A stretch of 37,531 bases of DNA from an archaeon (GTDB taxonomy: Archaea > B1Sed10-29 > WALL01 > JAGHAM01). The position numbers were made by a program, and so were the translations under genes. Under the pieces are notes generated by a model, which had not been told where the DNA came from, searched no databases, and saw only the letters and a program-made list of their open reading frames with translations. The stretch lies in the NCBI GenBank assembly GCA_021107635.1, contig JAIOSL010000030.1, positions 1 to 37,531 on the forward strand, given 5' to 3'. How positions within the stretch are numbered: the first letter of the stretch is position 1; each line of letters opens with the position of its first letter. This document shows positions 1 to 30,782 of the stretch, piece after piece.

Positions 1-510
1 ACTAGAATCAGATTCAGTAATATCTTTTATAAACCAACCAAAGTTAGCAGAGGAATTACTAACAAAACTTTGTGCATCTTCTGTGACATTAAATGAAATC
101 CAAGACTCTTCTTCAGTATTACTTAAGCTTGCAGTGTCAGTTGCCGTTGAAGAATAATCTCCTCCAGAAGTAGACCATTCACCACTAACAGAGTAATTAT
201 TCCAAGTAACACCAAGTTCAGTCCAATTTCTAGTAGGGTTCTGTTGAATTCTGTGCACCCCATGAGTTCTAGAGGAATTAGTATCTCCACTAGGAATATC
301 ATAAAAATATAAATCCAAGGTTGCGTTGTCAACAGTTGCAGAAGAAGGTATAGATGATAGGTTAAACGTAATTACTCCTCTTAAATCATTTGAAGAATCA
401 TCAGAACCTACTGCAATCAAACTAGAAGTGCCATAATTGGCATCTTGTTCAGAAGATTTACTATACACATAAGAATCACTAGTGTTGGAGGGGCCTGTGA
501 GTGTTTCACC
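1..510 (-). other. DNRLRE/disaggregatase-like carbohydrate-binding-type module within the giant CDS
   Basis: Translation DSYVYSKSSEQDANYGTSSLIAVGSDDSSNDLRGVITFNLSSIPSSATVDNATLDLYFYDIPSGDT...WTELGVTWNNYSVSGEW...WISFNVTEDAQSFVSN matches the typical DNRLRE pattern (NYG...L.V......R.LI.FNLSSIP....V.NATL.LY). Confidence 0.65.
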
Positions 511-3500
511 GAATCCAGGATCGGACGAATCAAGTAGGATGGTATAGTTTTGGCCTACAGTTAGATTGGTCCAGAGAGTTTTGTAACCGTCTATGCTCGT
601 ACAAGTTTGATTTTCAAATACAAAATCCGCACATTTTAGTAAGTAGTTTCCTTGAGCAGTTACTGTGAAGTTTGCACTGGATAAATTTAAGTTATCAAAA
701 TTAACAGAATATGTGCTTACAAACAAATCACTGGTTTCGCTGGTTGGACTATCTAGTTTTAGTGTGTTATAAGGACTTGTGTCAGTATGGTTATAGATAA
801 TTATCTTTTTTACGGGTATATCATCATATATCCGGATTTCGATATCAAGAATTCCAGAAGCATTTTCGATTATTTGAGTAGTTATGTTTAATAAATCTGA
901 ATTTTTGTCAATTACTATGATTGTATCGTGTTCATTTAGCTGGAACCACGTTGTTTGAGTGTTGTTAGTGTTTCCGTTTGTGTCGTTGGATAGTATGGTT
1001 ATGTTATATCTTCCAACATAAGTGGTATTAGTAAATGAAGCGTTGTATTTACCGTCTGTATTTACATCGTTCATTGAGATAATTTCATAGAAAGGTCCCC
1101 ATGATACATTTGCTCTAACAACACTAACTCCTAGTCCATCACTAACATTAGCAGTGATATTTACTGATTGCGTTTGATTGTAAGTTGTTCCAGATACTGG
1201 GTTAAGATCAGTTACATTTGGACCTCCTTGAACGTTTAATGTTTCTTCTGCAGTTTGAACTGATTTGTTGTAGTAAGCACTAAGATTATTTTGTATTTTG
1301 CAGTAATAACTTTGAGATCCTTCAGATTGAGTAGAAAAGTCTAAAGTGTATGTTGCTTTTCCGGACAATTTGGTATAGTTAGAATCTAAGTAATTTGTTG
1401 AATTGTAAAAATCAACAGAATAGCCAGATATTGCATTTTGAGTGTCATTTTCAGTTACGTTGCAGGTAATAGTATTAGTTCCAGTAGAAACAGTTCCTGT
1501 TGGTGTTTCCCAACGTACATCAGATTTGCCCCATACATAAAATGTTTTGTATGCTAGCGTGTCGTTCAAGTTGCTTGAGTTATCTCTAACATAAATCTTA
1601 ACAACATGCAATCCTATAGACCAACTTGAGTTTGTGCAGATGGTTTGGTTGGTCCAGTTACTCGTGAAAGGATCGGTTAAGTTTTGTTCAATTAAACTGC
1701 TACTCCAATTGTATTCAATCCAAGACACGTTAATGGTTTCATTCCATTGTGCAGTGATTTCTAAACACTCTCCTCTGTAGATATTTGTTTCGTTTGTTTG
1801 GTATGTTGATCCAACAACGAAAGGAGCGACGATATCAGCACTGCTTGAAACAGTAAGACTGTCTGAATCTTCGAATGTATCAGATGAGTTATATTGTGCA
1901 CTGGCATTATCTGAGATATTGCATTTAATGGAATACACTCCTGCACTACCAACAGTAAAGTTATATTCTGCCCAACCACTTGAATTAGTATAATTGAAAC
2001 CTAGGAAGGTTGTATCTCTCCAAAATGAAACATTATAACCGTTCAATCCAGAACTGGAATTAGAATCAGTGACTTTACAAGACATAATAGTATAATTATT
2101 TTCTTGCATACTACCAGGAACAACAGAACCCTCAGAGATACTTGCCCATCCCCACACTTCAATAGTTTGATTGGGCATGGTTCCGTTAGTGTTTCCTGAA
2201 GAATCATTTGCATATTGCTTCCATGCGAGTACTCCAGGAGTCATGCTAGTGTTTATTTGATGAGAGAAATTACTCCAATCGTCTGTGCCTGAAATACTCT
2301 GAGTTGAATTAACCCAAACACTTGAATCATTCAAAGATAATACTGCATAATCCAAGTTGTAGTTATCATGCCATGAAACATTTAAGTATAGTGTATCGCC
2401 TTTATGTGCCAAAGAAGATCCTTGTATTGTTGTATAGTTAGGAGCTATCAATTCGATTGTAGTTATGTTTGTTGTTTCATCGTTTCGAGAGTCTATGTGG
2501 TATAATGAAGTATTGGTTATGTTACATTTCAGTGTATGAGCACCAGGTGTACTTGCTGTGTAAACATAATTTGCCCAACCTGTGGAATTAGTGTTATTCG
2601 AGTTCAAATATACTCCATCTTCCCAAAATGAAACGTTATAGCCACTTATGCTGGAACTGTTGGTATCGTCTTCTATTTCGCATGAAACAAGAACTTTGCT
2701 GTTTAGAGTTGGTGTTGAATCATTGATGTTCATGTTCTTTACGTAAGCCAGACCGTATACGTTAAAGGATAAATAGCTTAGGCTGTTATTCCAGTTGTCG
2801 AACGGGTCCTTTGAGTATATTTTCACTACGTGATTTCCTAAGCGCCAAGTTGAAAGCACGTTGAGGGTGCGATTGGTCCAGTTTTGGTTGTTTGGTGAAG
2901 GTAGGCTTATTGAGTAGTTGAATAAGTCAGATAGTGTTGAATTGTATTCTGCTTTTGCTTCGTCGATGGATTCGTTCCATCTTGCATACACTTTGGCCGC
3001 GTTTCCTCGGTTTACTTGGGTAGTGTTGATTCCGTATGTATTTGAGTATAGGAAAGGGGGAATGGAATCAGAAGTAGAAAGGAATATAGTAGAATAATCT
3101 CTGAAAACATTGTTTGGGGCAGATATTTTGAACTCCACTGCACGAGATTCTTCGGATGCTCCGGTGAAGTTTACTATAAAGTAGAAAGTAACGTTAGTGC
3201 CGTTCGAGCCGATTCCCTCATTAGCAGATGTATTCCATTTTAAAGTTTCTCCTGAAAATGTGCCATTAAGACGTTCAGACACGTCTGTGGCATTCTTGTA
3301 CCAAACGTCTGTGCTTGCATTGATGAGCCAAGAAGCGTTAAGGTTAAGATAAGACACGTTTGATGTATTCATACTCCAATTCTGAGAGCTAGAATTAACA
3401 GAAACATCTATTTCAAACCGATATACCTGGTCTGTATTTAAGTAGAATGTTTTGTTTAGTCCGGAATCAGTCAAAGACCCGCTAGAGTGTGCGCTTGAGT

Positions 3501-6500
3501 TGTAAATGCGTATTTCGGAAACATCTAAGTCTAATGGACTGTCTATAACGTTAAAGTAGTAGTATCCTATGATTTGTGGTGGTGTGCGACTAACGTTCAG
3601 TAATTTACCGTCCGGGTTGACCATGTAAGCAAACACCCTGAAACTGCCAGTGTCGCCATTAGGGTTCCATGCTGTCCATAGAGGAGCTAAATGTATTACA
3701 TTGCATGAACCACATGGAGAGCTTAGGTTTCCTGCTTGAGACCCGTTATATTGCACTGATTGTTGCACCCATGACCCTGAAACATTTTTTTCTACGCCTA
3801 GTATGACATAACCGCTAAAGTTAACTGAACCCCAGTTCAGTATCGGCGCGCCTCTTTTTTCTTCCAGGTCTACTTGTAAACCGGGTTTTTTCGCCCAGTC
3901 TAATTGTGTTTCTGGTACGGCCCAAGCGTATGAAGGTTCGCTTGTCTCAATTTGGGAGTGTAAAAGAATTGGTTTGTCTGAAGTGATTATGCATGTGCCG
4001 CTTGATGTGGTGTGGGAGTAGTAGTATCCGCCAGTGTCGTTGTTTGAGATGCCTGTGGATGTGCAGTTGTCTGTTACTGTAGTTCCATTGAAGAGTATCC
4101 ATGCACTCATGACGTGATTTCCGCCATCGGCAGGATAAATAAATTTTGTTCCAACGCTTGAACCATCTGTTGAAGTGAGGTATGCTCCGCCATCACCATC
4201 ATTCGGATAACGCACGAGCGCGCTTGAGTTGGTTGTTACGTTGCATATTGCACCATCAGCAGAACCAACAATTAATACTGAGCCGTTAACTGTGATAGTT
4301 CCTGTGCTAGTGTTGCAGCCGGTCACTGAGTAGTTTATGGCTGAGTTTTCTGGATTGATTATGAGGAAGTCTCCGTTTCTTAATGTTCTGAATGAGAAGA
4401 ATGTTCCGTTCCATGTGCCGTTGTCTGAAGGTATTCTTGCTGTTCCGTCTCTAGCAGTGTACCCGTCACCCATGAGTAGAAATGTTTGAACTGGGTTGTC
4501 TGCGGTCAGTTTGTAAACATTGGGTGAGGTTGCATGGAATTCTGAGCTGCTTATGCCTGTAAGCGTGTCATCTTGAGTCACGTAGCTCTGGGTGTTGTAG
4601 TTATAGATGCTATAAGTTGTGTTCCCTCCTTCAGTAGCATGGATGGTTGTGTTTGTGTTGTCTGCGTCTTGCAAGCCCCAGAAGTAGAATGTTTTGCTTG
4701 TTGGCTGTGAGAGTGCGTCTAACGCATAAGTGAACGAATTGGGGTTGGTGTTTTTTAATGCTCCTAGGTACACAGATACGGGTTTGTCTGTTTTCACGGT
4801 GTAGAAATTGGGTGTCACTGAGGGGTTTGAAGGTAATTCAAAGTAGTTGTAGTAGTCTCCTGCATCGGATAAGTTTCCTGATGCAGATATTGATCCTCCA
4901 CTTATATCATAGCTTGTGTCATCATAATTAGCTATCACTACAAGTCCTTCGTCTGAGTCTGTTTGACTGTCATCCCATCTGTTGAAGCTTCCTTCGTAGA
5001 CAAACCAGTCAGTTGTATCATAGTTTGGTGCGGAGGCGTCATCGTATTTGTAGTATAAGTACAAGTCGTTTGCTGTTTGGTTTGCACTGATGTTGACCTG
5101 GAAGAAGAGGATTGTTTCTGTGGTGTTAAAGTCTGTCATTAAGTAAGGTAGTGCTTCTCCGCTTGTGACATTGTATATTCTGATGTCGTCGCCATCGGAT
5201 TGTACTTTTCCGTCGGATAATAATGTCTGTGTGTCTACAGTGATGTACACTAGTTGGTTTGTTAGGTTAAGTTCTGCTTGTTCGGATAAGTGTATTTGTT
5301 TTCTGTGATTGTAGAAAGCAACAGTCCAATTGTCTTGACATGATTCCAATAGGACATCTTCGTTTGGTAGGTACGTGTCGTTTCTTGTTATTGGTAGAGA
5401 AGATGCTTCTATGTCCAAGGTAAAAGAGCTGGAATTGCTTACTGTGCTTCCGGTGGTATCATTCGCCCAGACTAAAACGTTGTATGTGCCATTGTACCAG
5501 TAAATGCTTGTGTTGTATTCATAGGTATCATTACCTTTGTCGTTCATTCCGTATTCTATTTGAGTGCTGTTCGGCAAAGTGATTGTCACGGTGACATTGT
5601 CTACTGCATCATCATCTGTCACATTCGCATTTATACTGACACTCCAACCGTAACCGATGGTGCTGGCATTGAATGAAATTGAGTTTATGACTGGCTTTCC
5701 ACCTATGTCAAAAGTGAATGAATCGTTGTGTTTTAAGAAAGCGTAAACGCTGGTGTTTCCGTCGTATGTTACGTTTATCGTGTGCACTCCTGAGCTTGCT
5801 CCGGAAGGTATCACATAGTCTATTAGAGCTATTCCGGATGCATTGGTTGTGGCTGTACCTATAGAATACGAATCAGTTGTGTCGGTGAAATTAAGGGTTT
5901 GTGTGGGGATTGCTGTCCCGTTCTGATATTCGAGAGTTGCATATAAGCGTACAGTCTCTTCTTTGCTTGCATTGGTGTCGTTTACTGAGACTGTTGGTAT
6001 GGAAGTGTTTGAATATACGGTTATGTCAAGTAAAGTGAAGTCTCCTGTTGCGTTCGGAGAGCTAGATTCTATTCTGACTTGTTGTGGTCCAAGAGCTGCG
6101 TTCGAGCCGATGTCTGCTGTTATGTTGTTCCAGAATAGTACGCCAGAGGCCAGTGATGCTATCGTCTTGTTTGTTTGGCCTGAACTGTTTGTCCAACCGG
6201 AAGGCAAGGAATAATTGAGTGATACGTTTCCTGCTGTACTCCCGCCTGTGTTGTTTGTGTATGCTTCAAAGTCGTATGATTGTCCGCGTGTTACATTGAC
6301 TGGATGACTTTCAGTAGTTATCTCAAGAAGTCCTTCTGATCTGACTTCCAAAGTCAACGCACTTACTTGGGTGAAATTTCGTTCTTCATCAGGATTGTTG
6401 TATTCCAGGGTTATGTTGAGGACATAGTTATTGTCTGGGGTGCTGGAGTTCACTGTTATTGTGAAGTTTGTTGTACTGTTTGCTAAAGTAGTTATGTTGC

Positions 6501-9500
6501 CTATGTTTTTTGTGGATGATGAAGTTCCTTCTACAGTACAATTAAAGCCAGTGATACTCGGACAGTTCAGAGTTATGTTTGCATCAGTCATGTTCACTGA
6601 CCATTGGTTCTGGAAAGTGAAATTGTACTTTGCTGCTTGTGTTTTGTATACCCTGCTCGTGTTTAATGTGCTCTCGAAGGTGCTTGTTGTTTTGATTATT
6701 GTTATGTTGCGCGTGTCGTTGTAGGTGTAATCAAAGTTCGTGCCGTTAGCTGTCACGTTCCAGTACAAGGTATAAGTACCTGCTGGGACATCGCCCACTG
6801 GATATCCTGTGCTGTTATCCCATTTTTTGGTGCATGTGCTGTTTTCTGGTATGTTCGCGCATTGTTTTGTTTCGGTGTTCGGTCCGAATCCAGCATACGA
6901 ACCATCTTGCTTGATCAAGGATAGTGTCACATTCGGACTTATGAGTGTGTTGTTGATTGCTTGGACAGTGACGTTAATCCAATCAATTGTGTCGCTAACT
7001 TCGTACTCATCGACGGAATGCTCATACAAGTTCTCGTGTGTTATGTTGGTTACGTTCAATGTTCCTTTTATGATTTCAAACTCGTACGAGCTTAGGAGGT
7101 AATTGCCTGCATAGTCGTATAGCACGTTCCCGCTAGAGTCCTGTAGTTCAGAATAGACGCGATATGTCCCTGTAATCGTATTAGAAGTGCTCCAGCCTCC
7201 TTCGGTGTTCCAGATTGAGGTAAGATTGAGTTCATCTCCTGCTTGCAGGACTCGCAGTGTCGGGGTGCCTCCCCTATCGTTTACTACTGCTGGCATTTGG
7301 TTTGCCCATGAACCGTTGTTGTATCTTTGGACTAACATCCATAGATATCCTCTGATGGTTTCGTTTCCGTTGTTCTCTAGGTTTACATATCTGTCTTCTT
7401 CGTATGAATTGCCTAAAACTATGTCTGGATTGTATTTTCGTCCGTGTTTTGGTGTTAAAAATAGTGTTTCAGCGTCTTCTCCCGCTGATTCAAAGTATGC
7501 TTGTGCTGATGCGTTGCATACAATTTTGTACCCTGCATTTAAGGTCATTCCTGAGAAAAGTATTTTGTTGGGGTACGGTGCATTGTTTGTTGTTGAAGAT
7601 TGATTGTTGGTGTTGGTTCCATTTGTAGCGTATAGTCTGCATAAAGTGTTTGGTTCTTTAATGGCCATGGCAACATAGTCTGCGTTCTGTGGTAATATGA
7701 AGACTTTATCAAACTCGGAGTATGGTAAAAACGTAGATGCTTCTCCTGCATCTCCATCCGCTTGTTGGTATGCCCCTATTGTAGCATTAGCTACTATCCT
7801 TGTTGCAGGTTCATCTCCATGGCCTGAACCAGAAGGTCGCTCATATGCTGTTTCTCCTGCATCCAACATCATTGTGGTGTCTGTTCCATCTGAGTAGTAT
7901 ATTGTTACATTAGTGTTGTTTTCTGTTGCTGCTATTTGCACATAGTTTGATGCCACACCCCATAACTCAGTGCTTGCAGGGTACATCGGGAATGGATCGC
8001 CATTGTTATCTCCAACGTAATGAGCAAGTATTGAGACATTGGATTCGATGATTATTGAATTTCCGAGATCTGTTGCACTGTCTGGTGAAGCTCCTTCTGG
8101 GATAGTATATGTTTTGTTGGTGAAACTGCCTTGAGTTAGAGTAAAGTTGCCATCGCTTGACATTAATGATACTGAAGGTCCTGAGGCCGAGCCGTTATAG
8201 ACAAGAATTCTTGCGTCTCCGAAAGGAGAATAAAAGCCCACTATCGGTGGATTGTATCGTGTGTGATGATATACGAACTTGGTTCCTGCGAAACTTATTG
8301 GATTAAGAGTTGTTCCGAAAGACCCCAATTGTGTTCCAGTCGATAATGGCCCTTCAGCAGATAATGCTCCGCCAGCTGTCAAGTACGCGCTTGCGAAAGA
8401 TGTTGTTCCTTGTTCATCTAATGAAGTCTCCGTCCCCCCTATTTGTATTGTGCTGCCATTAACATAGCTGCCTACATCAATGCTGTCTCCGGTCATGGCT
8501 TCGTTGAGTATGTAATAAAGTTCTTGTGGTGAAGAATATGTGAACACCCCCACTTCATCAGAAACACTGTCTTCAATGTTTACATCATTTGAGTTTCCAT
8601 AATACATGTAGATGTTGTTTGATCCTGTGTTTAGTATTTTTGCTTGGAACCAAACGGATGTGTTTGTGGTGTTGCAATCTTCTTCCAGCCAGTGGGTTAA
8701 GTTGGTTGTTTCACTGCTCAACACTTGTTCTGATCCTGGTGTTGTAGTGGGGTAAGTATCTTTGTATTCTGTTCCGTACATGACTAGTCCAGGTTTTGCA
8801 GATATCGCGCCACCGAATTCGTCTGTGTGTGAACCGTCATGAAGATTTTCTTCTTCGACTGCATATTCGAGAGAATACGCAGTTACATTTCGGATTGCTT
8901 CGTGAGCGTTATCTCCTCCATCTTCTGTCATTATTTTTCCTATTATTGCCGGAGTTGAAGTAAAACCTGTAGTAGAATAAGTGTTGAATGAATGTGACCC
9001 TTCTACTATTGCCGCGTTCCATCTTGTTGTTTCTGTGGAATAGAATCCCACGGGCAATGCAAGCCAAGTGATTTCTTCATTAGTAAATGAGGGGTCTGAA
9101 GTATCTGATGCTTCTACGAACACTTGGAATCCAGTTAACACGCTCAAATCATCGCTTGTACTAGGAGTCAAGTCGGATTGTCTTGTTTTGATTTCTTCAC
9201 TGTTATTTAATGAAATGGTGTTTGCTATGATTACTGGTGCTGAAGAATAAGAATAATCAAAAGTGACTGTTCTATACGATGAACCACCACCTACAAAGCT
9301 TCCTGCTTGCAATTTTTCTCCCATTAAGATATGAGTTCCTTCTTTTACTGCAATCCAACCGAGAGTTTCGTTCGGGTGAATTTGGTCAAGGTTTGTTGAT
9401 TCTTGAATAGTAATATTAAATCCTGTTTCGTTGACACTTCCTACTCGTGAGAATGCTTCGTCGGCATTATTAATTGAATTTAAACTTGCTACTAAGATTG

Positions 9501-12500: not shown

Positions 12501-15500
12501 TTGAATCATTCACATGATTATCTAAAGGAGTTACAAGAGTTACATTCGGAGGAGCAGAAATAATAAAAGTCCGTGTTTCTGTACACACTTCGTTGCCATC
12601 CTTGTCAATCACACAAGCATAATAGGTGTAAGTGTCTTGGCCCAAACCAGTAAAGTTGCGGTCTAGATCATAAGTATTAGATTCATAACTTGCTTGAACT
12701 TCACTGAGTGATAACGTACGATTCCAGAGTTTTACTTCATCAATAGAACCATTGAAATGCCTGTCTCCAGTACCTTGTCCGCGCATGCCAATGAACAGCG
12801 GCTCATTTGATGTGGACGGAGTTCCACTGAGAATTTGGGTGTCTCTGAGACTACCGTCAATGTACAAACTCAAGTGAGAACTGTTGTATGTGCCAACAAT
12901 ATGATACCAGATTTCTTCGTTGAGACCTCCGATAGGAGGTTCATTAGTATAGTTTCGCCCTAGGTTTGTGTCCACAGCAAACTCAAACTCGGAATTATCC
13001 GTGTTATGCTGCAAGTTGAATCCATTGTCCGCGTTCCTGTTGAAAATTTGTGCCCAGCTATTGCTTTGAGAATTTTCTTTCACCCATGCTTCAACACTGA
13101 AATTGCTCCCAACATTAAATTCCGACTGGCTGGAGATATTCATGTAATCATCACTGCCATCAAACACAGCATACCCTCCACGATTTACAGCGCTCAAATT
13201 GACTATGTACGCTCCACCGGTCAAAACGCCATTGTTCGCGTAAGGTGAATTACCGTACACTGTGTTGCCAGAAACATTCTCGAAATCCCAATAGCCAACC
13301 AAATCGTTATCAAAAACAATATATGCACTCCTATCAAGCGAGCCAGAAACATTCACGTCCACATAAATCCAATTATTTGCGGAAGCAGTACCATTAGAAG
13401 GAGTTTGTGATGTAAATTCTATTGACGGAGCAGTCTGCTGCTGGATAGTGAAATTCTTAGTAGTCAAATAAGATTCTACATCGCTTGCATTGTCATCTGC
13501 TCTCGTTGTCACATTCATCTTGTAAGTTCCATTAGGAACGTTTGTAGTGTCAAAATAAATGCTCACGCTAGAATCATCATTACTGTAAAAGCTTGCGTTT
13601 ATAGTATAGTTGATGCTTCCATCTGGATTGCATAGGTATAAGGAGTGATTCACAGATCCAATACTATCTGGGTCTTTTGATACCCCAATTCCAATAGTCA
13701 TGTTGTCATAGAACGTTCCGTTCAAAACATAGTCTCCACAAGTACCTGTTGTGTGGCAAGGATGGTTTTCAGGAATTTTACCTTGAGCATAGTGTTCTAT
13801 GCTGGGCATTGAAATGGGGTTATTCATACGTTCTATCTCATCAGAATATAAAGAGAGATTAGTATAGTTATTTCCATAGATGTCTTCAACATAAACACCC
13901 AATTGAATTTCATCTCCATCCTTTCTAGAACTTAACCAGAGATCCCCCGTAAAGTTCTGTTGTGTGACATTGAAACCATCATCACCAACTTGCCAAGATG
14001 TATTTGTATTGGCAAAGCTTACATTAGTTCCAGAACTTCCATTGACATATCGTATGTTATAAGACCCTGAATCCTCGCTTGTCGTGTAATACAAATAGAA
14101 ATTGTCAGTAGAACCGATGCCAGCAAAAAGACCATTTATCACTGAGAAACAGGTTTGGGAGTACGAACTGTTCCTTGAAGAATAAGATATATCATCCAAG
14201 CATGAGGTATCCAGCGACTCCAGAAAAACACAGTTATCGTTCACGATAGGATCTGCGGTCACTTTAGCATACCCATCAGTTATTTTTTTATTTGAGTAAC
14301 GAGTGTTCCAAATCGCCAGCTCTTCAAGCGTACCATTGAAATAGTACTGATTAGTGCCATTGGAGTTGTCCCTACCAAACTCCAGTGCATCAACACCAGA
14401 CACATTTGCCAAAAAATAGGTTGAATTCTCATCTCCATTAGTATAATTCACGCTAATGTTTTCTGCATTAACAAAAACAGTATTGCCAGAACCATTGACA
14501 GCCCAATTGATGTAATACCACTTGTCTGCTTCGAAAATGTTCTGGCCAATAGTCTCAAGTGATACCTGGGTAGAGCCATTGCTGTCTAATCTAAGGAACA
14601 GCTCGTCTTGCTTCAAACCAAATTGGAAGAGATTTCCACTGTCATTATGATCAGAATAACTTACCACTACCTGACCAGGCAAGGTAACCACATTTGCTTT
14701 GAACCAAACAGAGATTAAACCTTCTGTGAGATTAAAAGAACCAGCTGGAATAGTAACATAGTCATCATTGCCATCAAAACCAAGCGCACTCGTTAGAAAA
14801 GAAGGTTCCCCATAATCGCTGCCATTGTAAGTCCCATTGTTTCCATTCACAGTATCAATAATCGATCCACTTTGTTCGTTCATGTGCCATAGGCCTTCAA
14901 TTCCGGGCACCCCAGAGGGTATTTCGTTAGCTATTGGGTCATAGGAACTGTTACAGTAATATGTCTTCAGTGGTTCGGTTGGAGAACTTGAGTAGTTTAT
15001 ATTTTTGAACAGACATATAGTATAATTTTCGGTATTTCTCATAGCCTCCATATCCCAAAACTTTAGTGACAAGTCATTGCCCTTGTTAATCGCATAATCC
15101 TTTTTTTCTTCATTCTCCAAGTTCACTCTATGCAAGAAAAAAGTGTTCCTGAACACGCTTGGTTCTACATTCCAAGTGAAATTGATTTGAGCCCAAGTAG
15201 AACCATTTGTGATATCTGTATGCAAAGCACTATCATCAAACACCCCGTAAGTAAAGGTGTCTGAGAACAAACTAGTACTCTCAAACCACTTTCCTTTATT
15301 CCGATTATGCGCTCGTAATATTTTTTCGGTTATAACACTATCGTTTTCAGATAAATTATTTGCTGGAGGTCTTATACTCCAACGATTCGGTATTCCTGGA
15401 TTAAGAGATCCATCCAAAGTAGTAGTGAACAACATCCGTGACTTGTTAATTCCATTAGCATCCGTGCAGTTTATCAAAGCAGTAAAAGTGCCGGATGATG

Positions 15501-18500
15501 AAGTTGTTATGTTGGAAGGGGTGATACTGACCACACTACAAACAGGTGCGATTGTATCATTAACTACGATTAAATCTCGGTCTTCGCCCCAATTAAAATT
15601 GCCGTCTACATCATATGATTTACAATTCCAAGTATGATTTCCAACACTGCTATTGACAGTCCATTGGGCACTCGCACTTGTTCCGTTAATTGCAGTAGTT
15701 TGACTAAGAACATAATTCCCGGTTCCAAAAACAGCAGTTAAATCGTCAAAGTATGTGTTTCCAGCCCAACCCATTACACCAATAGAACCATTAGTTAATT
15801 GAGTGTCTGGAATTTCACTTTCCCATGAAGGTTCTGTTTCTCCGTGTTCCCAGTGTTTTACGCGTACGTGTGTTCCATTCAAATCAACTTTGAACCAGTA
15901 CCAAGTGCTTGAAGACGTGTCATCAACAGCAAAACTTGAACTAGACCATCCTCCAGCATTAACCCAACTACCACCTACTCTCCCTCTAACAAGCATTTGT
16001 CCATTTTCGGTAAGATAACGCCAGTAGTTGTCACTGTCATTATAATAGAATACTATACCCATTGGATTAGAATCTTCCCTCTTGACCAAAGCTGTGTAAG
16101 TATAGTTTTCCCAACTGCGGTTACCTTGATAGATTACTTGTGTGCCCCCAGAAGAACCATTATTTTCCAGAACTCCACCAGAAACATTCCATTCATCCAT
16201 CCCATTACTCCAATCTGGATCTGCGGTCCAGTTTGAAAGGTTTGTTGAATCAAAGCCGTCTTCATAGAGAACAGTAGTTTCATTGAAATACAAGCTGATG
16301 TTAGTTAGGTTATAGTTATCTGTAGCAGAACAATTGAACACAATGTTAAGAGGAGATGTTTCAGTTGAATCAGCATCAGGAACATTCAAAGTGACGTTCG
16401 GTGGAGACGTCCAATAGTTCAACGAAACGGTTCTATTAGTATTATCCCAAGCCACTTGTGTTGTGTTATCAAAGCATTGTACGTTCCAAATGAAAGACAT
16501 GTTAGTCATGTTGTTTATTGTGAAATTTGTGACATTGCTTGTTCCAGTAACATTTTGTGTTTGATTTAAAGCCCAACCGGAAATATTATGCCAGAGACTG
16601 CAATTCACGATACCATCATTATCGGAAACCGTTGCATTGAAAGACATGTTCACATACTGAGTTGAATCGTTTGAATAACCTGCATGGGGTTGACTTAAAG
16701 TAACATTAAGGCAGCTAGTTTGATTAGATTCAACGCTGAAAGAAACAAAATCACTTTGATTTGCTATCATCAAATAAGATTGGTTTATCCAATCTGCTGA
16801 AAAACTAACAGTGGAAAATTGTATTTCATCGAGAATTCCATCAAAAGAACGTTGGCTTGAAGAATACCCTTGTCCAATCGAATTTATTATCACAGGATAT
16901 GTTCCGGTAGTAGAGTTAACGACTTCACCGTTTCTGTATAAAATCCAATGAGTACTGTTTTTTAGGACTGTAATGTGATACCAGGATGAAGTCCCAAAAT
17001 CACTGTTGTACCAATAAAGTACGTCCCCGTTATTGTCTTTTATCTTGAACGTTGTTCCATCAGAATCCAAGCCGATATAATTGTCTGTGTCAGTAGAAAC
17101 TCCAAGAGGGTAATTTTCTTCTAATTGATCTCGGTTAAACCAGAAAGAAACAGACCCGCTGCTAAAATTAAATTCAGGAATTTCGATTATATCCGTAGCT
17201 CCACTGAAACGCAATCCGTTCGAAATAATGCCTTCTACTCTTGCATCAACATTACTTGAATTTCCATGATTAGCGTTAGTAGTACTATCAATAATATCAT
17301 AGGCAGAACCAGAAGGAGTTTCATTAAAGTGCCATACGCTTGAATAACTAGAATTCCATACTCCAGTAGCATTTTCTCTGCTTTCTATTATAGTAGTGTT
17401 TTTGTAATAAACTGAGATTGTTTTTCCACTACTTTCTAAAGAGGGTAATCTTACCCAGATATATGCATTAGATGCAGTATAATTTTCTATTTCAAAAGAA
17501 AGCTCAGTGCCACCATACTCCTCAGAACATACTTCACTATAAAATCTCAAATCAGAATAATCAGAAAGCATATCAGAAGCTTTCGTTAAATTAATGAAAG
17601 CAGGGAAGTCTGCGAGAGTAGTACTTCCTGCGTTTGTAATGGTTATGTTCATACATTTTTGGAAAGAGGCATTAGGCCAGCCAGCATCATTGAATGCATA
17701 ACCTTCATCTTGTCCGAAAGTGAATGCGAGCGAGTGTTTTCCGCTTGTCAAGACTTTTGATGTTTCCTGGCTTTGAACTGAACAAGTATAGTTCTCTAAG
17801 AAAATACTTCCATTAATCCATGAGTAGTTAAGAGATTGATTCCCACAGGATATTTCAAGGAACTCAAGGTCTCCGGACGAGTTTTCGTTCCCCCATGAAG
17901 TACCATTGAAGGGTTGGATGGTAAGATTTGCTGAACCCTGTGTTGTGAAAGCTACTGTCCAGTTTCCGCCTACTGTCGGATAGCTTTGCACGTTAATGAT
18001 GTCAATGTCAATATCATAAGTGTCATTAGAAAGTCTTGGAACAAACCATTCAATTCTATCGTACGAACCATCCAAATCTAAGTCTAAATAAGAAATATCG
18101 TACGAACTATTCTCATTTAATCTTATTCGTTCTCCATTTATTACTCTATAGATAGTGGGTTTATAGCTTAAATCAGGCAAGTTAGTAAATGCTTTTACAT
18201 TAGTATAATGCATGCTCGCTTCTGAGAACACCAGCACTCTTCTGAAACCTTCAAACACTTCTTCAGTTTGCTCTGGCGCAGGCGTTTCATATTCAAGAGT
18301 ATAATTACCTCGGATTGATTCCCATTGAACAGGTTCTCCTACCTTTGCTGGCTTTTGCATTAACCTAGCGCCTTCTTCAAGAGTGCCATTAACTCCAGAA
18401 AGCATAGGGATATTCCATTCTAATATACCGTCTTGTAGTCTAGTTTCTTCTATTCCATTTACTCTTTTTCCATCAATTTCCTTGAAGAAAGAATAATTAT

Positions 18501-19758
18501 CTTCAGTTAAAGGGATTTTTACAGTTATGTTGTAGTAATGAAGTGAGCAATCATGGTGTACATATATTTGTTTTTCTGTTCCTGAAATGTTCAGTTCTGC
18601 AATTTCAAGATTAGGATAAGAAGCTATGAGTACACCGTTCTCATATACATTTATGTTTCTGGCTTCAGGAGGAATGATGTCTTCCAAATCTGTTAAAACT
18701 TCTACCAACTCAACTATTACAGGAGACGTTTGGAACGAAAGATTAAAGAATTTAGTCTCATTTGGGAAGAGTTTCATGGGAAGGTATTTAGCTGAGAAGG
18801 ATTGATTATTTATTTTAATATTAAATGCATCCGGAGGGACTGGAAGAGACACATTTGTGATAGATTGATTTTCGTTAGAATTATAAACAGTTATTTGTTG
18901 CGTCCAATTAACAAACTCTCCGATTAAAACATTACCTTGAACCACTTCATCAAAATAGACTTGTATGCCATGGTAGGTTAAATTTGGTTTATTTTCAACA
19001 AAAATAAAAATACTAGAACTAGAAGAACTTTGATTAGAACTTATTTTTATTGAATAATCTCCATCAGAGTCAAAAAATTCACTTGGACTCAATCTATATG
19101 AAAAAGAGTGTATGGAAGAGAGGTTATTGGATAATAAACAAACATCATTGAAGTAAACTTCAATCAAAAGATTTGAATCGTTTTCATAGTTTATTCCAGT
19201 AATGTCGATTAGTTCAACAGAAGAATACGTTTCTTTATTAGTTTGAAACACAATCCCTACAGGACTCCACAAGTCAGGATTTTCTGAATTATTGTTAATT
19301 GGAGGCAAACTTTGATTGACACTCAATTCAAAAATAGTAAGTTCTTGAGAGTTATTGCTTGGATTAAGATATTCAGACGCATCTCCTTCAAAAGATACAT
19401 CAGCTAACACAATACCTGGCTGAAGAGTTGGTGTAGTTAATTGGCCGCCATAGTCAGTAGAACCAGAGTAAAAAGAAGAATTATTAAGTAAAACAGTTAG
19501 GTTTTTTCCAGGAATACTCTCACCATTATCCAAAAATAACTCAATTAAAAGTGAATTGTTACCTAACAAAAAGAAGGAAATTTCCGTGTTAGCCCATATT
19601 TCAATAGTTTTAGACGCAGAAACAGACTTAAGCGTAGAGTTATCTGTCATCGTATGTGTCAATGCAACCACTGACGCACTCAGTAATAACAGCAAGACCA
19701 TTGCAGGTATTACTCTAGCCTGAGCTTTCTCTCCACGTTTCGTAACTAATTTTGACAT
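1..19758 (-). CDS. Giant multidomain cell-surface/adhesin-like protein, C-terminus truncated by the window edge (>=6586 aa)
   Basis: ATG at 19758 preceded by in-frame TAG; N-terminus MSKLVTKRGEKAQARVIPAMVLLLLLSASVVALTHT is a classic signal peptide. Codons align with the 60-nt lines (codon triplets 1-3, 4-6, ...); lines spot-checked near 1, 3841, 5941, 10021, 13861, 14941, 17581, 19021 and 19681 contain no in-frame stop. Absence of any terminated ORF of this frame in the supplied track agrees with an ORF open at the left edge. Translation is rich in N-x-S/T sequons and beta-sandwich modules. Confidence 0.93.
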   Translation of the reverse strand, partial: MSKLVTKRGEKAQARVIPAMVLLLLLSASVVALTHTMTDNSTLKSVSASKTIEIWANTEISFFLLGNNSLLIELFLDNGESIPGKNLTVLLNNSSFYSGSTDYGGQLTTPTLQPGIVLADVSFEGDASEYLNPSNNSQELTIFELSVNQSLPPINNNSENPDLWSPVGIVFQTNKETYSSVELIDITGINYENDSNLLIEVYFNDVCLLSNNLSSIHSFSYRLSPSEFFDSDGDYSIKISSNQSSSSSSIFIFVENKPNLTYHGIQVYFDEVVQGNVLIGEFVNWTQQITVYNSNENQSITNVSLPVPPDAFNIKINNQSFSAKYLPMKLFPNETKFFNLSFQTSPVIVELVEVLTDLEDIIPPEARNINVYENGVLIASYPNLEIAELNISGTEKQIYVHHDCSLHYYNITVKIPLTEDNYSFFKEIDGKRVNGIEETRLQDGILEWNIPMLSGVNGTLEEGARLMQKPAKVGEPVQWESIRGNYTLEYETPAPEQTEEVFEGFRRVLVFSEASMHYTNVKAFTNLPDLSYKPTIYRVINGERIRLNENSSYDISYLDLDLDGSYDRIEWFVPRLSNDTYDIDIDIINVQSYPTVGGNWTVAFTTQGSANLTIQPFNGTSWGNENSSGDLEFLEISCGNQSLNYSWINGSIFLENYTCSVQSQETSKVLTSGKHSLAFTFGQDEGYAFNDAGWPNASFQKCMNITITNAGSTTLADFPAFINLTKASDMLSDYSDLRFYSEVCSEEYGGTELSFEIENYTASNAYIWVRLPSLESSGKTISVYYKNTTIIESRENATGVWNSSYSSVWHFNETPSGSAYDIIDSTTNANHGNSSNVDARVEGIISNGLRFSGATDIIEIPEFNFSSGSVSFWFNRDQLEENYPLGVSTDTDNYIGLDSDGTTFKIKDNNGDVLYWYNSDFGTSSWYHITVLKNSTHWILYRNGEVVNSTTGTYPVIINSIGQGYSSSQRSFDGILDEIQFSTVSFSADWINQSYLMIANQSDFVSFSVESNQTSCLNVTLSQPHAGYSNDSTQYVNMSFNATVSDNDGIVNCSLWHNISGWALNQTQNVTGTSNVTNFTINNMTNMSFIWNVQCFDNTTQVAWDNTNRTVSLNYWTSPPNVTLNVPDADSTETSPLNIVFNCSATDNYNLTNISLYFNETTVLYEDGFDSTNLSNWTADPDWSNGMDEWNVSGGVLENNGSSGGTQVIYQGNRSWENYTYTALVKREDSNPMGIVFYYNDSDNYWRYLTENGQMLVRGRVGGSWVNAGGWSSSSFAVDDTSSSTWYWFKVDLNGTHVRVKHWEHGETEPSWESEIPDTQLTNGSIGVMGWAGNTYFDDLTAVFGTGNYVLSQTTAINGTSASAQWTVNSSVGNHTWNCKSYDVDGNFNWGEDRDLIVVNDTIAPVCSVVSITPSNITTSSSGTFTALINCTDANGINKSRMLFTTTLDGSLNPGIPNRWSIRPPANNLSENDSVITEKILRAHNRNKGKWFESTSLFSDTFTYGVFDDSALHTDITNGSTWAQINFTWNVEPSVFRNTFFLHRVNLENEEKKDYAINKGNDLSLKFWDMEAMRNTENYTICLFKNINYSSSPTEPLKTYYCNSSYDPIANEIPSGVPGIEGLWHMNEQSGSIIDTVNGNNGTYNGSDYGEPSFLTSALGFDGNDDYVTIPAGSFNLTEGLISVWFKANVVTLPGQVVVSYSDHNDSGNLFQFGLKQDELFLRLDSNGSTQVSLETIGQNIFEADKWYYINWAVNGSGNTVFVNAENISVNYTNGDENSTYFLANVSGVDALEFGRDNSNGTNQYYFNGTLEELAIWNTRYSNKKITDGYAKVTADPIVNDNCVFLESLDTSCLDDISYSSRNSSYSQTCFSVINGLFAGIGSTDNFYLYYTTSEDSGSYNIRYVNGSSGTNVSFANTNTSWQVGDDGFNVTQQNFTGDLWLSSRKDGDEIQLGVYVEDIYGNNYTNLSLYSDEIERMNNPISMPSIEHYAQGKIPENHPCHTTGTCGDYVLNGTFYDNMTIGIGVSKDPDSIGSVNHSLYLCNPDGSINYTINASFYSNDDSSVSIYFDTTNVPNGTYKMNVTTRADDNASDVESYLTTKNFTIQQQTAPSIEFTSQTPSNGTASANNWIYVDVNVSGSLDRSAYIVFDNDLVGYWDFENVSGNTVYGNSPYANNGVLTGGAYIVNLSAVNRGGYAVFDGSDDYMNISSQSEFNVGSNFSVEAWVKENSQSNSWAQIFNRNADNGFNLQHNTDNSEFEFAVDTNLGRNYTNEPPIGGLNEEIWYHIVGTYNSSHLSLYIDGSLRDTQILSGTPSTSNEPLFIGMRGQGTGDRHFNGSIDEVKLWNRTLSLSEVQASYESNTYDLDRNFTGLGQDTYTYYACVIDKDGNEVCTETRTFIISAPPNVTLVTPLDNHVNDSNRYVNLTFNVSVTDDVDLMNCSLWHNISGWSLNQTNSVTGITNTTLFNLINLENVTFIWNVQCFDNTSQSDWGNANRTVFLNWSDPNTPTWSNNETNASDSTKTGGIVYFNVTLNDTVAGEDYIFSLYNGTDWVNDSVVAWTAPEEIEITKIINATRGQTVQWYWWFNDTGSNTNFTNTWNFTVANTQPTHTAPILDSSSVWNLTYGDLTCYNQSTSDADSDSVKNIYNWYLNDSSITVLNLPFEGGSNSTYTRDYSENDYNGTVSDAIWNRTGGYDGKGAYQFDGGMDHIVLENTGINESNPINLNDSFTISLWAYFVENKSCYLINDYDGIASSHINIHADPSGGNIQIKAQIDDNNNPTVLVGNVLNLSQWYHIALVRDKGNTVKLYVNGTESDSEIDITTGSVMSNQNWTIGADASDTMDENVNGSIDDILVFNVSFSEEQVNALYENKTNMWLSNGTEAGDVWKCEATPNDGYSDGTTLTSGNLTIYPTDHPNVTIYIPEDNANLTGIGSKALQYTATDMQGVDTCLYSKNGAANVTLESCQNTTLSFTKGVHNITVYAIDSTSLNYTGSDFVNFTVRESTSLISLSFEPSTQAQGSNVSISVRLMDQLGVSGIANQNISFNDSTDVVFIGNTTTNAEGYASIVYALSSSASLGAHTINASFDGNESIYYLGSSTTSDLTVVSTPNIHSVSISDTEIGLNEYFYIEANVSDDTGLDDVLLYVTHPNETTLSYPMSPSGGLYVYNLTNLWAAGDYFLYVFANNTGSVSNQSNVYNNSLNVRGTLDIQSDKDEYKNFDTVNLANKFDWDLPSYDYREVLNISNSGSSSVFEYPISLDLDTQTLISDGKMNLNCSDIQFATTLTTYELPLSISNPYGSTQYNLTFPITLTDSSALNHLSSESEIRLFDSNQSTPYSASSTVPFWIESISSTSVKLWTYLEELPTSGTTLYLYYGNKSASTATNYTDTFREIIGEAGNASINSTWSWINFAHLNATGEQPILVASLNSINNADEAFSRVGSVNETGFNITIQESTNLDQIHPNETLGWIAVKEGTHILMGEKLQAGSFVGGGSSYRTVTFDYSYSSAPVIIANTISLNNSEEIKTRQSDLTPSTSDDLSVLTGFQVFVEASDTSDPSFTNEEITWLALPVGFYSTETTRWNAAIVEGSHSFNTYSTTGFTSTPAIIGKIMTEDGGDNAHEAIRNVTAYSLEYAVEEENLHDGSHTDEFGGAISAKPGLVMYGTEYKDTYPTTTPGSEQVLSSETTNLTHWLEEDCNTTNTSVWFQAKILNTGSNNIYMYYGNSNDVNIEDSVSDEVGVFTYSSPQELYYILNEAMTGDSIDVGSYVNGSTIQIGGTETSLDEQGTTSFASAYLTAGGALSAEGPLSTGTQLGSFGTTLNPISFAGTKFVYHHTRYNPPIVGFYSPFGDARILVYNGSASGPSVSLMSSDGNFTLTQGSFTNKTYTIPEGASPDSATDLGNSIIIESNVSILAHYVGDNNGDPFPMYPASTELWGVASNYVQIAATENNTNVTIYYSDGTDTTMMLDAGETAYERPSGSGHGDEPATRIVANATIGAYQQADGDAGEASTFLPYSEFDKVFILPQNADYVAMAIKEPNTLCRLYATNGTNTNNQSSTTNNAPYPNKILFSGMTLNAGYKIVCNASAQAYFESAGEDAETLFLTPKHGRKYNPDIVLGNSYEEDRYVNLENNGNETIRGYLWMLVQRYNNGSWANQMPAVVNDRGGTPTLRVLQAGDELNLTSIWNTEGGWSTSNTITGTYRVYSELQDSSGNVLYDYAGNYLLSSYEFEIIKGTLNVTNITHENLYEHSVDEYEVSDTIDWINVTVQAINNTLISPNVTLSLIKQDGSYAGFGPNTETKQCANIPENSTCTKKWDNSTGYPVGDVPAGTYTLYWNVTANGTNFDYTYNDTRNITIIKTTSTFESTLNTSRVYKTQAAKYNFTFQNQWSVNMTDANITLNCPSITGFNCTVEGTSSSTKNIGNITTLANSTTNFTITVNSSTPDNNYVLNITLEYNNPDEERNFTQVSALTLEVRSEGLLEITTESHPVNVTRGQSYDFEAYTNNTGGSTAGNVSLNYSLPSGWTNSSGQTNKTIASLASGVLFWNNITADIGSNAALGPQQVRIESSSPNATGDFTLLDITVYSNTSIPTVSVNDTNASKEETVRLYATLEYQNGTAIPTQTLNFTDTTDSYSIGTATTNASGIALIDYVIPSGASSGVHTINVTYDGNTSVYAFLKHNDSFTFDIGGKPVINSISFNASTIGYGWSVSINANVTDDDAVDNVTVTITLPNSTQIEYGMNDKGNDTYEYNTSIYWYNGTYNVLVWANDTTGSTVSNSSSFTLDIEASSLPITRNDTYLPNEDVLLESCQDNWTVAFYNHRKQIHLSEQAELNLTNQLVYITVDTQTLLSDGKVQSDGDDIRIYNVTSGEALPYLMTDFNTTETILFFQVNISANQTANDLYLYYKYDDASAPNYDTTDWFVYEGSFNRWDDSQTDSDEGLVVIANYDDTSYDISGGSISASGNLSDAGDYYNYFELPSNPSVTPNFYTVKTDKPVSVYLGALKNTNPNSFTYALDALSQPTSKTFYFWGLQDADNTNTTIHATEGGNTTYSIYNYNTQSYVTQDDTLTGISSSEFHATSPNVYKLTADNPVQTFLLMGDGYTARDGTARIPSDNGTWNGTFFSFRTLRNGDFLIINPENSAINYSVTGCNTSTGTITVNGSVLIVGSADGAICNVTTNSSALVRYPNDGDGGAYLTSTDGSSVGTKFIYPADGGNHVMSAWILFNGTTVTDNCTSTGISNNDTGGYYYSHTTSSGTCIITSDKPILLHSQIETSEPSYAWAVPETQLDWAKKPGLQVDLEEKRGAPILNWGSVNFSGYVILGVEKNVSGSWVQQSVQYNGSQAGNLSSPCGSCNVIHLAPLWTAWNPNGDTGSFRVFAYMVNPDGKLLNVSRTPPQIIGYYYFNVIDSPLDLDVSEIRIYNSSAHSSGSLTDSGLNKTFYLNTDQVYRFEIDVSVNSSSQNWSMNTSNVSYLNLNASWLINASTDVWYKNATDVSERLNGTFSGETLKWNTSANEGIGSNGTNVTFYFIVNFTGASEESRAVEFKISAPNNVFRDYSTIFLSTSDSIPPFLYSNTYGINTTQVNRGNAAKVYARWNESIDEAKAEYNSTLSDLFNYSISLPSPNNQNWTNRTLNVLSTWRLGNHVVKIYSKDPFDNWNNSLSYLSFNVYGLAYVKNMNINDSTPTLNSKVLVSCEIEDDTNSSSISGYNVSFWEDGVYLNSNNTNSTGWANYVYTASTPGAHTLKCNITNTSLYHIDSRNDETTNITTIELIAPNYTTIQGSSLAHKGDTLYLNVSWHDNYNLDYAVLSLNDSSVWVNSTQSISGTDDWSNFSHQINTSMTPGVLAWKQYANDSSGNTNGTMPNQTIEVWGWASISEGSVVPGSMQENNYTIMSCKVTDSNSSSGLNGYNVSFWRDTTFLGFNYTNSSGWAEYNFTVGSAGVYSIKCNISDNASAQYNSSDTFEDSDSLTVSSSADIVAPFVVGSTYQTNETNIYRGECLEITAQWNETINVSWIEYNWSSSLIEQNLTDPFTSNWTNQTICTNSSWSIGLHVVKIYVRDNSSNLNDTLAYKTFYVWGKSDVRWETPTGTVSTGTNTITCNVTENDTQNAISGYSVDFYNSTNYLDSNYTKLSGKATYTLDFSTQSEGSQSYYCKIQNNLSAYYNKSVQTAEETLNVQGGPNVTDLNPVSGTTYNQTQSVNITANVSDGLGVSVVRANVSWGPFYEIISMNDVNTDGKYNASFTNTTYVGRYNITILSNDTNGNTNNTQTTWFQLNEHDTIIVIDKNSDLLNITTQIIENASGILDIEIRIYDDIPVKKIIIYNHTDTSPYNTLKLDSPTSETSDLFVSTYSVNFDNLNLSSANFTVTAQGNYLLKCADFVFENQTCTSIDGYKTLWTNLTVGQNYTILLDSSDPGFGETLTGPSNTSDSYVYSKSSEQDANYGTSSLIAVGSDDSSNDLRGVITFNLSSIPSSATVDNATLDLYFYDIPSGDTNSSRTHGVHRIQQNPTRNWTELGVTWNNYSVSGEWSTSGGDYSSTATDTASLSNTEEESWISFNVTEDAQSFVSNSSANFGWFIKDITESDSS
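4980..5330 (-). other. DUF2341-like module within the giant CDS
   Basis: HRKQIHLSEQAELNLTNQLVYITVDTQTLLSDGKVQSDGDDIRIYNVTSGEALPYLMTDFNTTETILFFQVNISANQTANDLYLYYKYDDA. Confidence 0.65.
9690..10080 (-). other. DUF2341-like module within the giant CDS
   Basis: WDLPSYDYREVLNISNSGSSSVFEYPISLDLDTQTLISDGKMNLNCSDIQFATTLTTYELPLSISN...ESEIRLFDSNQSTPYSASSTVPFWIESISSTSVKLWTYLEELPTSGTTLYLYYGNKSASTATN. Confidence 0.65.
11160..11760 (-). other. LamG/concanavalin-like module within the giant CDS
   Basis: INLNDSFTISLWAYFVENKSCYLI...LNLSQWYHIALVRDKGNTVKLYVNGTESDSEIDITTGSVMSNQNWTIGADASDTMDENVNGSIDDILVFNVSFSEEQVNALYEN. Confidence 0.85.
12690..13290 (-). other. LamG/concanavalin-like module within the giant CDS
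   Basis: DLVGYWDFENVSGNTVYGNSPYANNGVLTG...YAVFDGSDDYMNISSQSEFNVGSNFSVEAWVKEN...EEIWYHIVGTYNSSHLSLYIDGSLRDTQILSGTPSTSNEPLFIGMRGQGTGDRHFNGSIDEVKLWNRTLSLSEVQ. Confidence 0.9.
14290..14910 (-). other. LamG/concanavalin-like module within the giant CDS
   Basis: EGLWHMNEQSGSIIDTVNGNNGTYNGSDYGEPSFLTSALGFDGNDDYVTIPAGSFNLTEGLISVWFKANV...ADKWYYINWAVNGSGNTVFVNAENISVNYT...YYFNGTLEELAIWNTRYSNKKI. Confidence 0.88.
15700..16290 (-). other. Concanavalin-like beta-sandwich module of a different subtype (DUF1080-like architecture) within the giant CDS
   Basis: LYEDGFDSTNLSNWTADPDWSNGMDEWNVSGGVLENNGSSGGTQVIYQGNRSWENYTYTALVKREDSNPMGIVFYYNDSDNYWRYLTENGQMLVRGRVGG...WYWFKVDLNGTHVRVKHWEHGETEPSWESEIPDTQLTNGSIGVMGWAGNTYFDDL. 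Confidence 0.6.
16780..17345 (-). other. LamG/concanavalin-like module within the giant CDS
   Basis: SVWHFNETPSGSAYDIIDSTTNANHGNSSNVDARVEGIISNGLRFSGATDIIEIPEFNFSSGSVSFWFNRDQ...SSWYHITVLKNSTHWILYRNGEVVNSTTG...RSFDGILDEIQFSTVSFSADWINQSYL. Confidence 0.87.
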
Positions 19759-20536
19759 CTACGGAAGCACTCCCAAGGGAGAGAACAAGTGCTGGATTGA
19801 ACTCTATCGTTGAAACACACGTTTGATTTATGTCTAAATTGCCACAGTCGCTCTTCTGGGTTGTTCCATCAGGCAATAGCCACAATAAAACAACATCTCG
19901 TACAATACCTCTCTTGTTAGTGACTGTTGCTTCAAACGCAGTGTTTCCGCCTCTTACTACCTTTTTCTCGCCTGTTAATTCTATTTCAAGTTCAGGTCCG
20001 AACAAATCTGAATCAATTCGATTAACAGTCTGATTTACCGGAATAGAAATGTTTTCAATTGTCTGGTTTACTTTTTCTGAGACGTTTATTGGAATGGACT
20101 GGTTTACCATTCCATTTTCTGGCTCAATCTCTGAACTTTCTCGAGTGTCAATTAGCCTAGGCTCTGAAGAATTAATTACTTCAGGGAAAACTGGCTCTAG
20201 ATCAACTTTTTCAGAGTTTTCTGACATAGAATTAGAGTCTTTAGAGTCAACACTGTCAACTGCCTCTAGTTCATGAGTTTCAACATTGTCAACAGTCTCT
20301 GGCTCAAAGACGAGTTCTTCATTTGTCTCAGGATTTTTTTCTAAATTTTCCGATAAAGAGTTCGATACATCCTGCTTTACTTCGTTTAGATCTTCGTGGT
20401 CGCGCTCCAGGATTGTTCCGTTGTAAGCTAAAGCCAAGCTAAAAAGTACTAAAAATGCGATAAACGCAGCAGTTACACGTATTTGTCCTCTATTTGCTTT
20501 GACAAAGCTGGAGCTAATTAATTTGATATGTTGCAC
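19715..20536 (-). CDS. Secreted/membrane-anchored protein with N-terminal TM, acidic Ser/Glu-rich linker and C-terminal Ig-like domain (273 aa)
   Basis: GTG start at 20536 preceded by a GGGGGG Shine-Dalgarno; N-terminal TM GQIRVTAAFIAFLVLFSLALAYNG; acidic linker; C-terminal beta-rich segment (FEATVTNKRGIVRDVVLLWLLPDGTTQKSDCGNLDINQTCVSTIEF). Its 3' end overlaps the giant CDS start by 44 nt, which implies coupling. Confidence 0.85.
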   Translation of the reverse strand: MQHIKLISSSFVKANRGQIRVTAAFIAFLVLFSLALAYNGTILERDHEDLNEVKQDVSNSLSENLEKNPETNEELVFEPETVDNVETHELEAVDSVDSKDSNSMSENSEKVDLEPVFPEVINSSEPRLIDTRESSEIEPENGMVNQSIPINVSEKVNQTIENISIPVNQTVNRIDSDLFGPELEIELTGEKKVVRGGNTAFEATVTNKRGIVRDVVLLWLLPDGTTQKSDCGNLDINQTCVSTIEFNPALVLSLGSASVDVKISYETWRESSG

Positions 20537-20935: not shown

Positions 20936-21172
20936 ATGGAACATACACTTTCTAGAGTTATTGAACGAATAAAAGGCAAAACAGATTACAGGGAAACCAA
21001 GATAATAAAGAAAGCAAAGATCAGCTATGATGGCAAACAGTACTTGATAAGACTGCCTACAGAGATTGCCAGATTGTTTGAAATAAAGCAAGGTCAGTAT
21101 TTGGAATTCTCTGTTGATGTACCGTACACACAAGAAAAGAAAGAAAAGGTTGCAGTTGTAACCGTACGATAA
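20936..21172 (+). CDS. AbrB/SpoVT-like swapped-hairpin DNA-binding protein (78 aa)
   Basis: IIKKAKISYDGKQYLIRLPTEIARLFEIKQGQYLEFSVDVP resembles the AbrB fold; GGGGAT Shine-Dalgarno upstream and A/T-rich TATA-like gatttaaataaa near 20894. Confidence 0.75.
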   Translation: MEHTLSRVIERIKGKTDYRETKIIKKAKISYDGKQYLIRLPTEIARLFEIKQGQYLEFSVDVPYTQEKKEKVAVVTVR

Positions 21173-21180
21173 GTGATTAA

Positions 21181-21420
21181 ATGATTAAACTTAATCCGTT
21201 TGAACGTACTGTTCTCAGTGTTCTTAGTAGAGCAGGAAGACCACTCACCACACGACAAATAGCAGATTATAGTGATATGAGTTGGCTTACTGCAAGAAAG
21301 TACTTGGAAAAACTTGGAAAACAGAAAAGAGTTGAAAGAACAGTAAGAGGAAAATCAATTTATTGGAATTTAACCAGAGAAGGTGACATGTATTCAACAC
21401 TGAGAGGATTAAGCATATGA
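21181..21420 (+). CDS. Winged-helix transcriptional regulator (79 aa)
   Basis: FERTVLSVLSRAGRPLTTRQIADYSDMSWLTARKYLEKLGKQKRVERTVRGKSIYWNLT is a canonical wHTH pattern; starts 8 nt after the AbrB-like gene. Confidence 0.82.
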   Translation: MIKLNPFERTVLSVLSRAGRPLTTRQIADYSDMSWLTARKYLEKLGKQKRVERTVRGKSIYWNLTREGDMYSTLRGLSI

Positions 21421-26328: not shown

Positions 26329-26351
26329 TTGAATCCCTTTAAACATGACTA

Positions 26352-27986: not shown

Positions 27987-28035
27987 AAAGTTCCCTCTAA
28001 GAAAAAATACGAGAAAGACATTAATAAAGGTATGC

Positions 28036-28800: not shown

Positions 28801-28836
28801 ACTAGTTTTTACGAAGCACAGCTATTTATAGTTAGG

Positions 28837-30779: not shown

Positions 30780-30782
30780 AAC

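Follow-up and report, generated by a model that had tools for sequence, protein, structure and literature searches.

A candidate giant adhesin encoded in a two-gene surface cassette of a small-genome archaeon

Little is settled about the means by which DPANN archaea recognise their partners and keep hold of them. The locus analysed here, from a small-genome archaeon, encodes a giant surface protein of at least 6,586 residues. The window, by which we mean the whole stretch of DNA analysed (37,531 bp), is an entire contig (C40) of a host bin (G000) of 1,198,584 bp that consists of 60 contigs and is 88% complete. The giant (1..19758, minus strand; 725 kDa as seen) starts with an ATG and is open at the contig edge. 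As the original prediction had claimed, a single minus-strand frame runs from the ATG at 19758 to base 1 over 6,586 codons with zero stops and no N, for which the base composition gives a chance probability with a log10 of about -192; the remaining five frames of the same region carry 313-577 stops apiece. The start itself is supported by a GGGAG-like ribosome-binding site, seen by eye approximately 9 nt upstream of the ATG both here and in a paralog on contig C16 of the host genome. Because the frame runs off the contig, it was probably missed by the ORF track, an omission that fits ORF listers skipping frames that leave their source.

The composition of the giant (11.7% Ser, 10.8% Asn, 10.4% Thr) is accompanied by 381 sequons where shuffled sequences have 152 +/- 10, that is 2.5 times the expectation, and by a sequon density of 5.8 per 100 aa versus at most 1.2 in neighbouring non-surface proteins, which bears out the predicted very dense N-glycosylation sequons. 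Extending the contig leftward to a stop and a C-terminal anchor, as had been proposed, did not succeed: no convincing counterpart of the window's first 70 bases was found elsewhere, the carbohydrate-binding module at the cut end is not continued at any contig end, and the visible 6,586 residues stop at the contig edge with no C-terminal anchor found among them. A frame of 1,098 aa entering contig C57 was considered as the continuation and rejected because its style differs. The giant is a real and intact surface protein, truncated by the contig edge rather than by a stop.

Its architecture was resolved by Pfam searches run in overlapping slices with curated cut-offs. Four LamG_3 domains, all above cut-off, lie at residues 855-991 (16786..17196, minus, as are all features of the giant), 1662-1826 (14281..14775), 2200-2355 (12694..13161) and 2721-2865 (11164..11598); DUF2341 was found at residues 733-813 (17320..17562), 3337-3406 and 3681-3730 and, below cut-off, at 4855-4933; and a DNRLRE-like module cut by the edge (7..453) is recognised above cut-off both as Disaggr_repeat (6436-6584) and as CBM96 (6426-6579). 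The LamG-like (at least four), DUF2341-like and DNRLRE-like modules of the original prediction are therefore all present, and to them can be added NPCBM_assoc at residues 4490-4564 and an H-type lectin match below cut-off at 3496-3567. Two further claims stood in part. With an HMM made from the Ig-like domain at the N-terminus, several further copies were detected within the giant, in keeping with the many Ig-like repeats proposed, but the Pfam Big matches (Big_1 at 4589-4670 and approximately 5893-5955, Big_7 at 6180-6255) are all below cut-off; similarly, the additional concanavalin-like module is visible by eye at residues ~1160-1345 (15724..16281) but is not recognised by Pfam.

Self-comparison, combined with Pfam, delineates a super-module A (residues 2985-4236; 7051..10806) composed of Ig-like domains, two DUF2341 domains, the weak H-type lectin match and an unassigned beta module, a paralogous super-module B (4563-5411; 3526..6072) that is 22-41% identical to A in pieces, and a C-terminal Ig-like tandem with a period of approximately 200 aa (5516-6201; 1155..3213). 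The internal repeats are 22-53% identical overall, which points to old duplications rather than assembly repeats. No catalytic domain was found in the 6,586 residues, PDB sequence searches with two slices of the giant returned no match, and single-sequence AlphaFold prediction of residues 3741-4217 gave no usable model (pLDDT 31.8).

Directly upstream of the giant lies a partner gene (19715..20536, minus) whose 273-aa product combines a GQ motif and a single transmembrane segment with an acidic stalk that bears sequons and, by eye, a CARDB/Ig-like domain at the C-terminus; the end of this gene and the beginning of the giant's share 44 nt. A partner HMM detects homologs immediately 5' of giants on C16 and in genomes G171 (whose contig C9 is, by shared sequence, JAFGSV010000028.1 of a Candidatus Aenigmatarchaeota archaeon), G187, G065, G191 and G061. 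Partner stop and giant start overlap in 8/8 junctions from seven loci, by 8, 11, 11, 11, 17, 23, 44 and 44 nt, and the overlap phase is identical in all eight (2 modulo 3). By these comparisons partner and giant form a two-gene cassette, duplicated on C16 (L049, G000:C16, where the giant, too, runs off its contig after 1,043 aa) and conserved in Aenigmatarchaeota, and we infer that the two genes are probably translationally coupled. A phase bias of longer gene overlaps is known. Since the eight overlaps share their phase, fusion of the partner to the giant by a programmed frameshift was also weighed; this was discarded, since by eye the giant has a ribosome-binding site of its own and since its transmembrane segment would come to lie mid-chain in the fusion.

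The family has a conserved head (residues 35-700; 17659..19656), which comprises an Ig-like domain at residues ~32-137, for which the HMM was built, and a beta-sandwich region at 480-700, and which has no Pfam family in any of 25 members. Residues 1-700 match the C16 paralog, with 44% identity over residues 1-342. Head homologs occur in 37 of 160 Aenigmatarchaeota genomes, some of the matches covering one subdomain only, and many sit in long, sequon-rich frames. The Aenigmatarchaeota giants are often cut at contig ends (L208, L211, L212, L213, L226 and others), so that true sizes and C-termini in the family are under-recorded. An AlphaFold model of residues 480-700, computed with 25 relatives, is all-beta (pLDDT 89); its best PDB matches are glycoside hydrolases of the GH2 kind, and because their TM-scores are low (0.34) we claim for the modelled region a beta-sandwich of Ig-like character and nothing more specific. 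Against the PDB, the head profile gave only weak sialidase matches.

The head had no match in 18 other genomes of the host phylum, which makes it necessary to ask whether the contig belongs to its bin at all. Ribosomal protein S3Ae, single-copy and encoded on C40, is 57% identical to that of a same-family genome, 41-48% identical within the same order and 31-36% within the same class, and at most 33% identical to Aenigmatarchaeota; because these identities follow the host's family, order and class, S3Ae places the contig in the host lineage. An assembly chimera or a mis-binned contig might be suspected from the missing head in the remaining host phylum, from the contig terminating inside a gene, and from third-position GC, which rises to 0.41-0.46 over residues 4001-5600 of the giant (window ~2959-7758), above all neighbouring genes, and then drops to 0.22 at the edge, a shift that perhaps reflects module exchange. 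With S3Ae speaking against mis-binning, and with no tandem repeats found, internal repeats just 22-53% identical and comparable frames in independent genomes speaking against a chimera, we regard this explanation as highly improbable, and the chimeric assembly of repeats that the original prediction had named as a danger is not supported. Horizontal transfer of the head is suggested by its absence elsewhere in the host phylum while the contig's S3Ae follows the host lineage, and by an identity of 54-56% between its region 480-700 and that of G214/G215 (Aenigmatarchaeota) when the S3Ae of the host and G214 are only 27% identical, though the tree of the head has little resolution, with the two host copies grouping at 89/84 and weakly nested.

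The N-terminal segment of the giant (residues 1-34; 19657..19758) has a KAQ-AR motif and one hydrophobic stretch, and is identical to that of the C16 paralog at 32/34 positions, versus 43% identity overall. The codons of these residues differ by 10 synonymous and 2 conservative non-synonymous changes, which together with the 32/34 identity indicates strong purifying selection. Such conservation is unusual for a cleaved Sec signal. The junction motif reads KAQ in the giant, RGQ in the partner and GQ, AQ or SQ among relatives; [GAS]-Q directly precedes the hydrophobic segment in 16/18 cassette-type N-termini versus 11/362 other membrane-segment ORFs (3 of the 11 proved to be family members), counts that come from a motif picked after inspection and from 18 related, hence not independent, rows. 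The single N-terminal hydrophobic segment of the predicted signal peptide is there, but it may be, in place of an ordinary cleaved Sec signal, an uncleaved or prepilin-type anchor. If the latter, a prepilin peptidase would cut at [GAS]|Q, and the helices of giant and partner would enter a type-IV-pilus-like assembly with the giant as a pilus or bindosome adhesin. The motif counts, the near-frozen N-terminus and the two Peptidase_A24 (prepilin peptidase) and five T2SSE-family ATPase matches in the host genome are consistent with this. Class III signals share G/A|Q and usually carry E at +5. This E is absent from both giant and partner, several members do not fit the strict [KRDE]-[GA] pattern, no pilus gene adjoins the cassette and the motif rows are kin, such that a prepilin-type giant is conceivable but doubtful. 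Elsewhere in the host genome (L145 6934-14085; G000:C42:146933-154084), two more sequon-bearing ORFs of 857 and 1,513 aa have KG-type pilin-like N-termini. In other giants (L220, L221, L223, L143) the membrane segment comes after a basic N-terminal segment of the YGPYYY type, such as MAYKRYIRKNGKVYGPYIYKSIRDENGNVRNIYV.

In several relatives the membrane segment is preceded by a winged HTH: in the G191 partner (HTH_IclR, 22.3 bits, cut-off 22), in a partner-like gene of G089 (HTH_23, 30.1, cut-off 24.6) and in the G215 giant (HTH_11, 35.4, cut-off 25), with matches below cut-off in G214, G208 and G171, while the G120 giant (at least 6,497 aa) opens with a segment resembling a winged HTH by eye. 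Because an HTH before the same segment must be cytoplasmic, these relatives would be N-in, which supports the N-in topology proposed for the window's giant. The window's cassette has no fused HTH; divergent from it are an AbrB/MazE-like small DNA-binding protein (20936..21172, plus; Pfam, below cut-off) and, 0.6 kb from the cassette, a stand-alone FaeA-like winged HTH (21181..21420, plus; Pfam, above cut-off), which in a single comparison weakly resembles the N-terminus of the G120 giant (29%, E = 8e-6). It could be imagined that the family is a membrane-tethered sensor-regulator, in which a single transmembrane helix connects a cytoplasmic winged HTH with a giant ectodomain that binds glycans, and attachment, perhaps with prepilin-peptidase cleavage at [GAS]-Q, alters gene expression; the HTH would be fused to giant or partner in several Aenigmatarchaeota and in the window perhaps be supplied by the separate divergent gene. 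As the case comes from one locus and a common fold, we consider it unlikely. If true, it would amount to contact sensing by a giant adhesin. The HTH fusions seen in relatives make it possible to test whether attachment and transcription are connected.

The reading that we favour, and hold to be rather probable, is that the locus is a two-gene surface cassette whose giant is an N-terminally anchored, N-glycosylated, glycan-binding adhesin by which the archaeon attaches to glycans, either on a partner cell or on a surface. In this model, the small stalk protein and the giant adhesin would be made from one cassette and inserted via the Sec pathway in such a way that the N-terminus stays cytoplasmic, each being held by its single N-terminal transmembrane segment starting after [GAS]-Q. 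Modules that bind carbohydrate (LamG, CBM96-like and perhaps H-type lectin) would sit far out from the cell on Ig-like spacers, the STT3 oligosaccharyltransferase, whose gene is present in the host genome, would coat the ectodomain with N-glycans, and the giant would most likely fasten the small-genome archaeon to its partner or to a surface. The originally predicted role in attachment or polysaccharide binding is thus partly supported, by the four LamG_3 domains, the CBM96/Disaggr module, the weak H-type lectin match, the STT3 gene and the published LamG giants of DPANN archaea (PMC6642349, PMC10266531). On the other hand, both LamG_3 and DUF2341 are also known from structural proteins and from enzymes that are secreted, which weakens the adhesin reading, and the lectin modules are not essential to the family, because the G120 and G061 giants, which have homologous N-terminal regions, gave no LamG match.

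Two other functions compete with an adhesin. The giant could bind environmental polysaccharide or form a matrix around the cell with no link to a host, since LamG_3, CBM96/Disaggr, NPCBM_assoc and DUF2341 are all known from carbohydrate-active proteins; the lack of any catalytic domain found in 6,586 residues speaks against such a capture or coat protein, which we think rather improbable. The missing C-terminus may hold another activity, and were this a cytoplasmic VirB4/TraG-like ATPase, the giant would be a device of the SPEARE kind. Its size and its LamG and adhesion modules are comparable, and SPEARE-like intracellular regions are reported in Aenigmarchaeota (PMC6642349, PMC10266531). However, AAA_10 (VirB4) has no match in the 88%-complete genome and the window's giant is anchored at its N-terminus, which makes this very unlikely.

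The analysis places the giant in a family that spans two phyla and can be defined by its head, its partner gene and the motif at the membrane junction, and this definition provides concrete domains for expression and testing. Several known systems invite comparison. At 22157-31829 (minus) the window also encodes MoxR AAA+, DUF58, VWA/BatA and MinD/ParA-like genes, behind which come three secreted proteins rich in sequons (583, 593 and 803 aa), the third having a hydrophobic segment at its C-terminus; a viral-contig scan with MoxR found no relative. This run is possibly a surface-protein assembly operon resembling the PFNA layout of bifidobacteria, in which MoxR AAA+ and DUF58 lie near genes for large secreted proteins of the Ig/FN3 kind (PMC8430577), although in the window the MoxR-DUF58-VWA series leads into different surface genes and a divergent gene cluster lies between it and the cassette. 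At 36105-36617 (minus), a 170-aa exosortase/archaeosortase-family protein (TIGR04178, above cut-off) adjoins CDP-archaeol synthase; a sorting signal that would mark the giant as an archaeosortase substrate would lie past the contig edge. With class III signal proteins, type IV pilins and the Sulfolobus bindosome the giant has a likeness in its G/A/S|Q-type motif before a single hydrophobic helix, in a genome with prepilin peptidases; it differs in lacking E+5 and in having a putative giant adhesin as ectodomain.

The closest likeness is to the giants of DPANN archaea. SPEARE proteins of Nanohaloarchaeota (PMC6642349, PMC10266531) have 5,998 to 9,409 aa, are mostly extracytoplasmic and combine LamG with many adhesion or Ig-like domains, and one was detected by proteomics (PMC6642349). 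The window's giant likewise has a very long ectodomain with LamG and other adhesion domains; most SPEAREs, in contrast, are anchored near the C-terminus and have a cytoplasmic region read as a restriction enzyme or VirB4/TraG ATPase, and neither kind of domain was found in the visible residues of the giant, which is anchored N-terminally. LamG expansions, for which partner attachment was proposed, are described in Mancarchaeum (Mia14), Undinarchaeota and other DPANN; the giant resembles these surface proteins in its four LamG_3 domains and one N-terminal hydrophobic segment, whereas in the available text of these reports (PMC5498576, PMC7414124) we found no description of such a head, partner gene or size. 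A Pacearchaeota protein above 5,000 aa is also published (PMC11573180). Because DPANN giants with LamG are already on record, neither size nor LamG content is new here. In a limited search of the accessible portions of the open-access literature we found no description of the head family, the cassette, the junction motif or the HTH fusions, and it is the conserved head, the overlapping partner gene, the junction motif and the DNA-binding relatives that look new.
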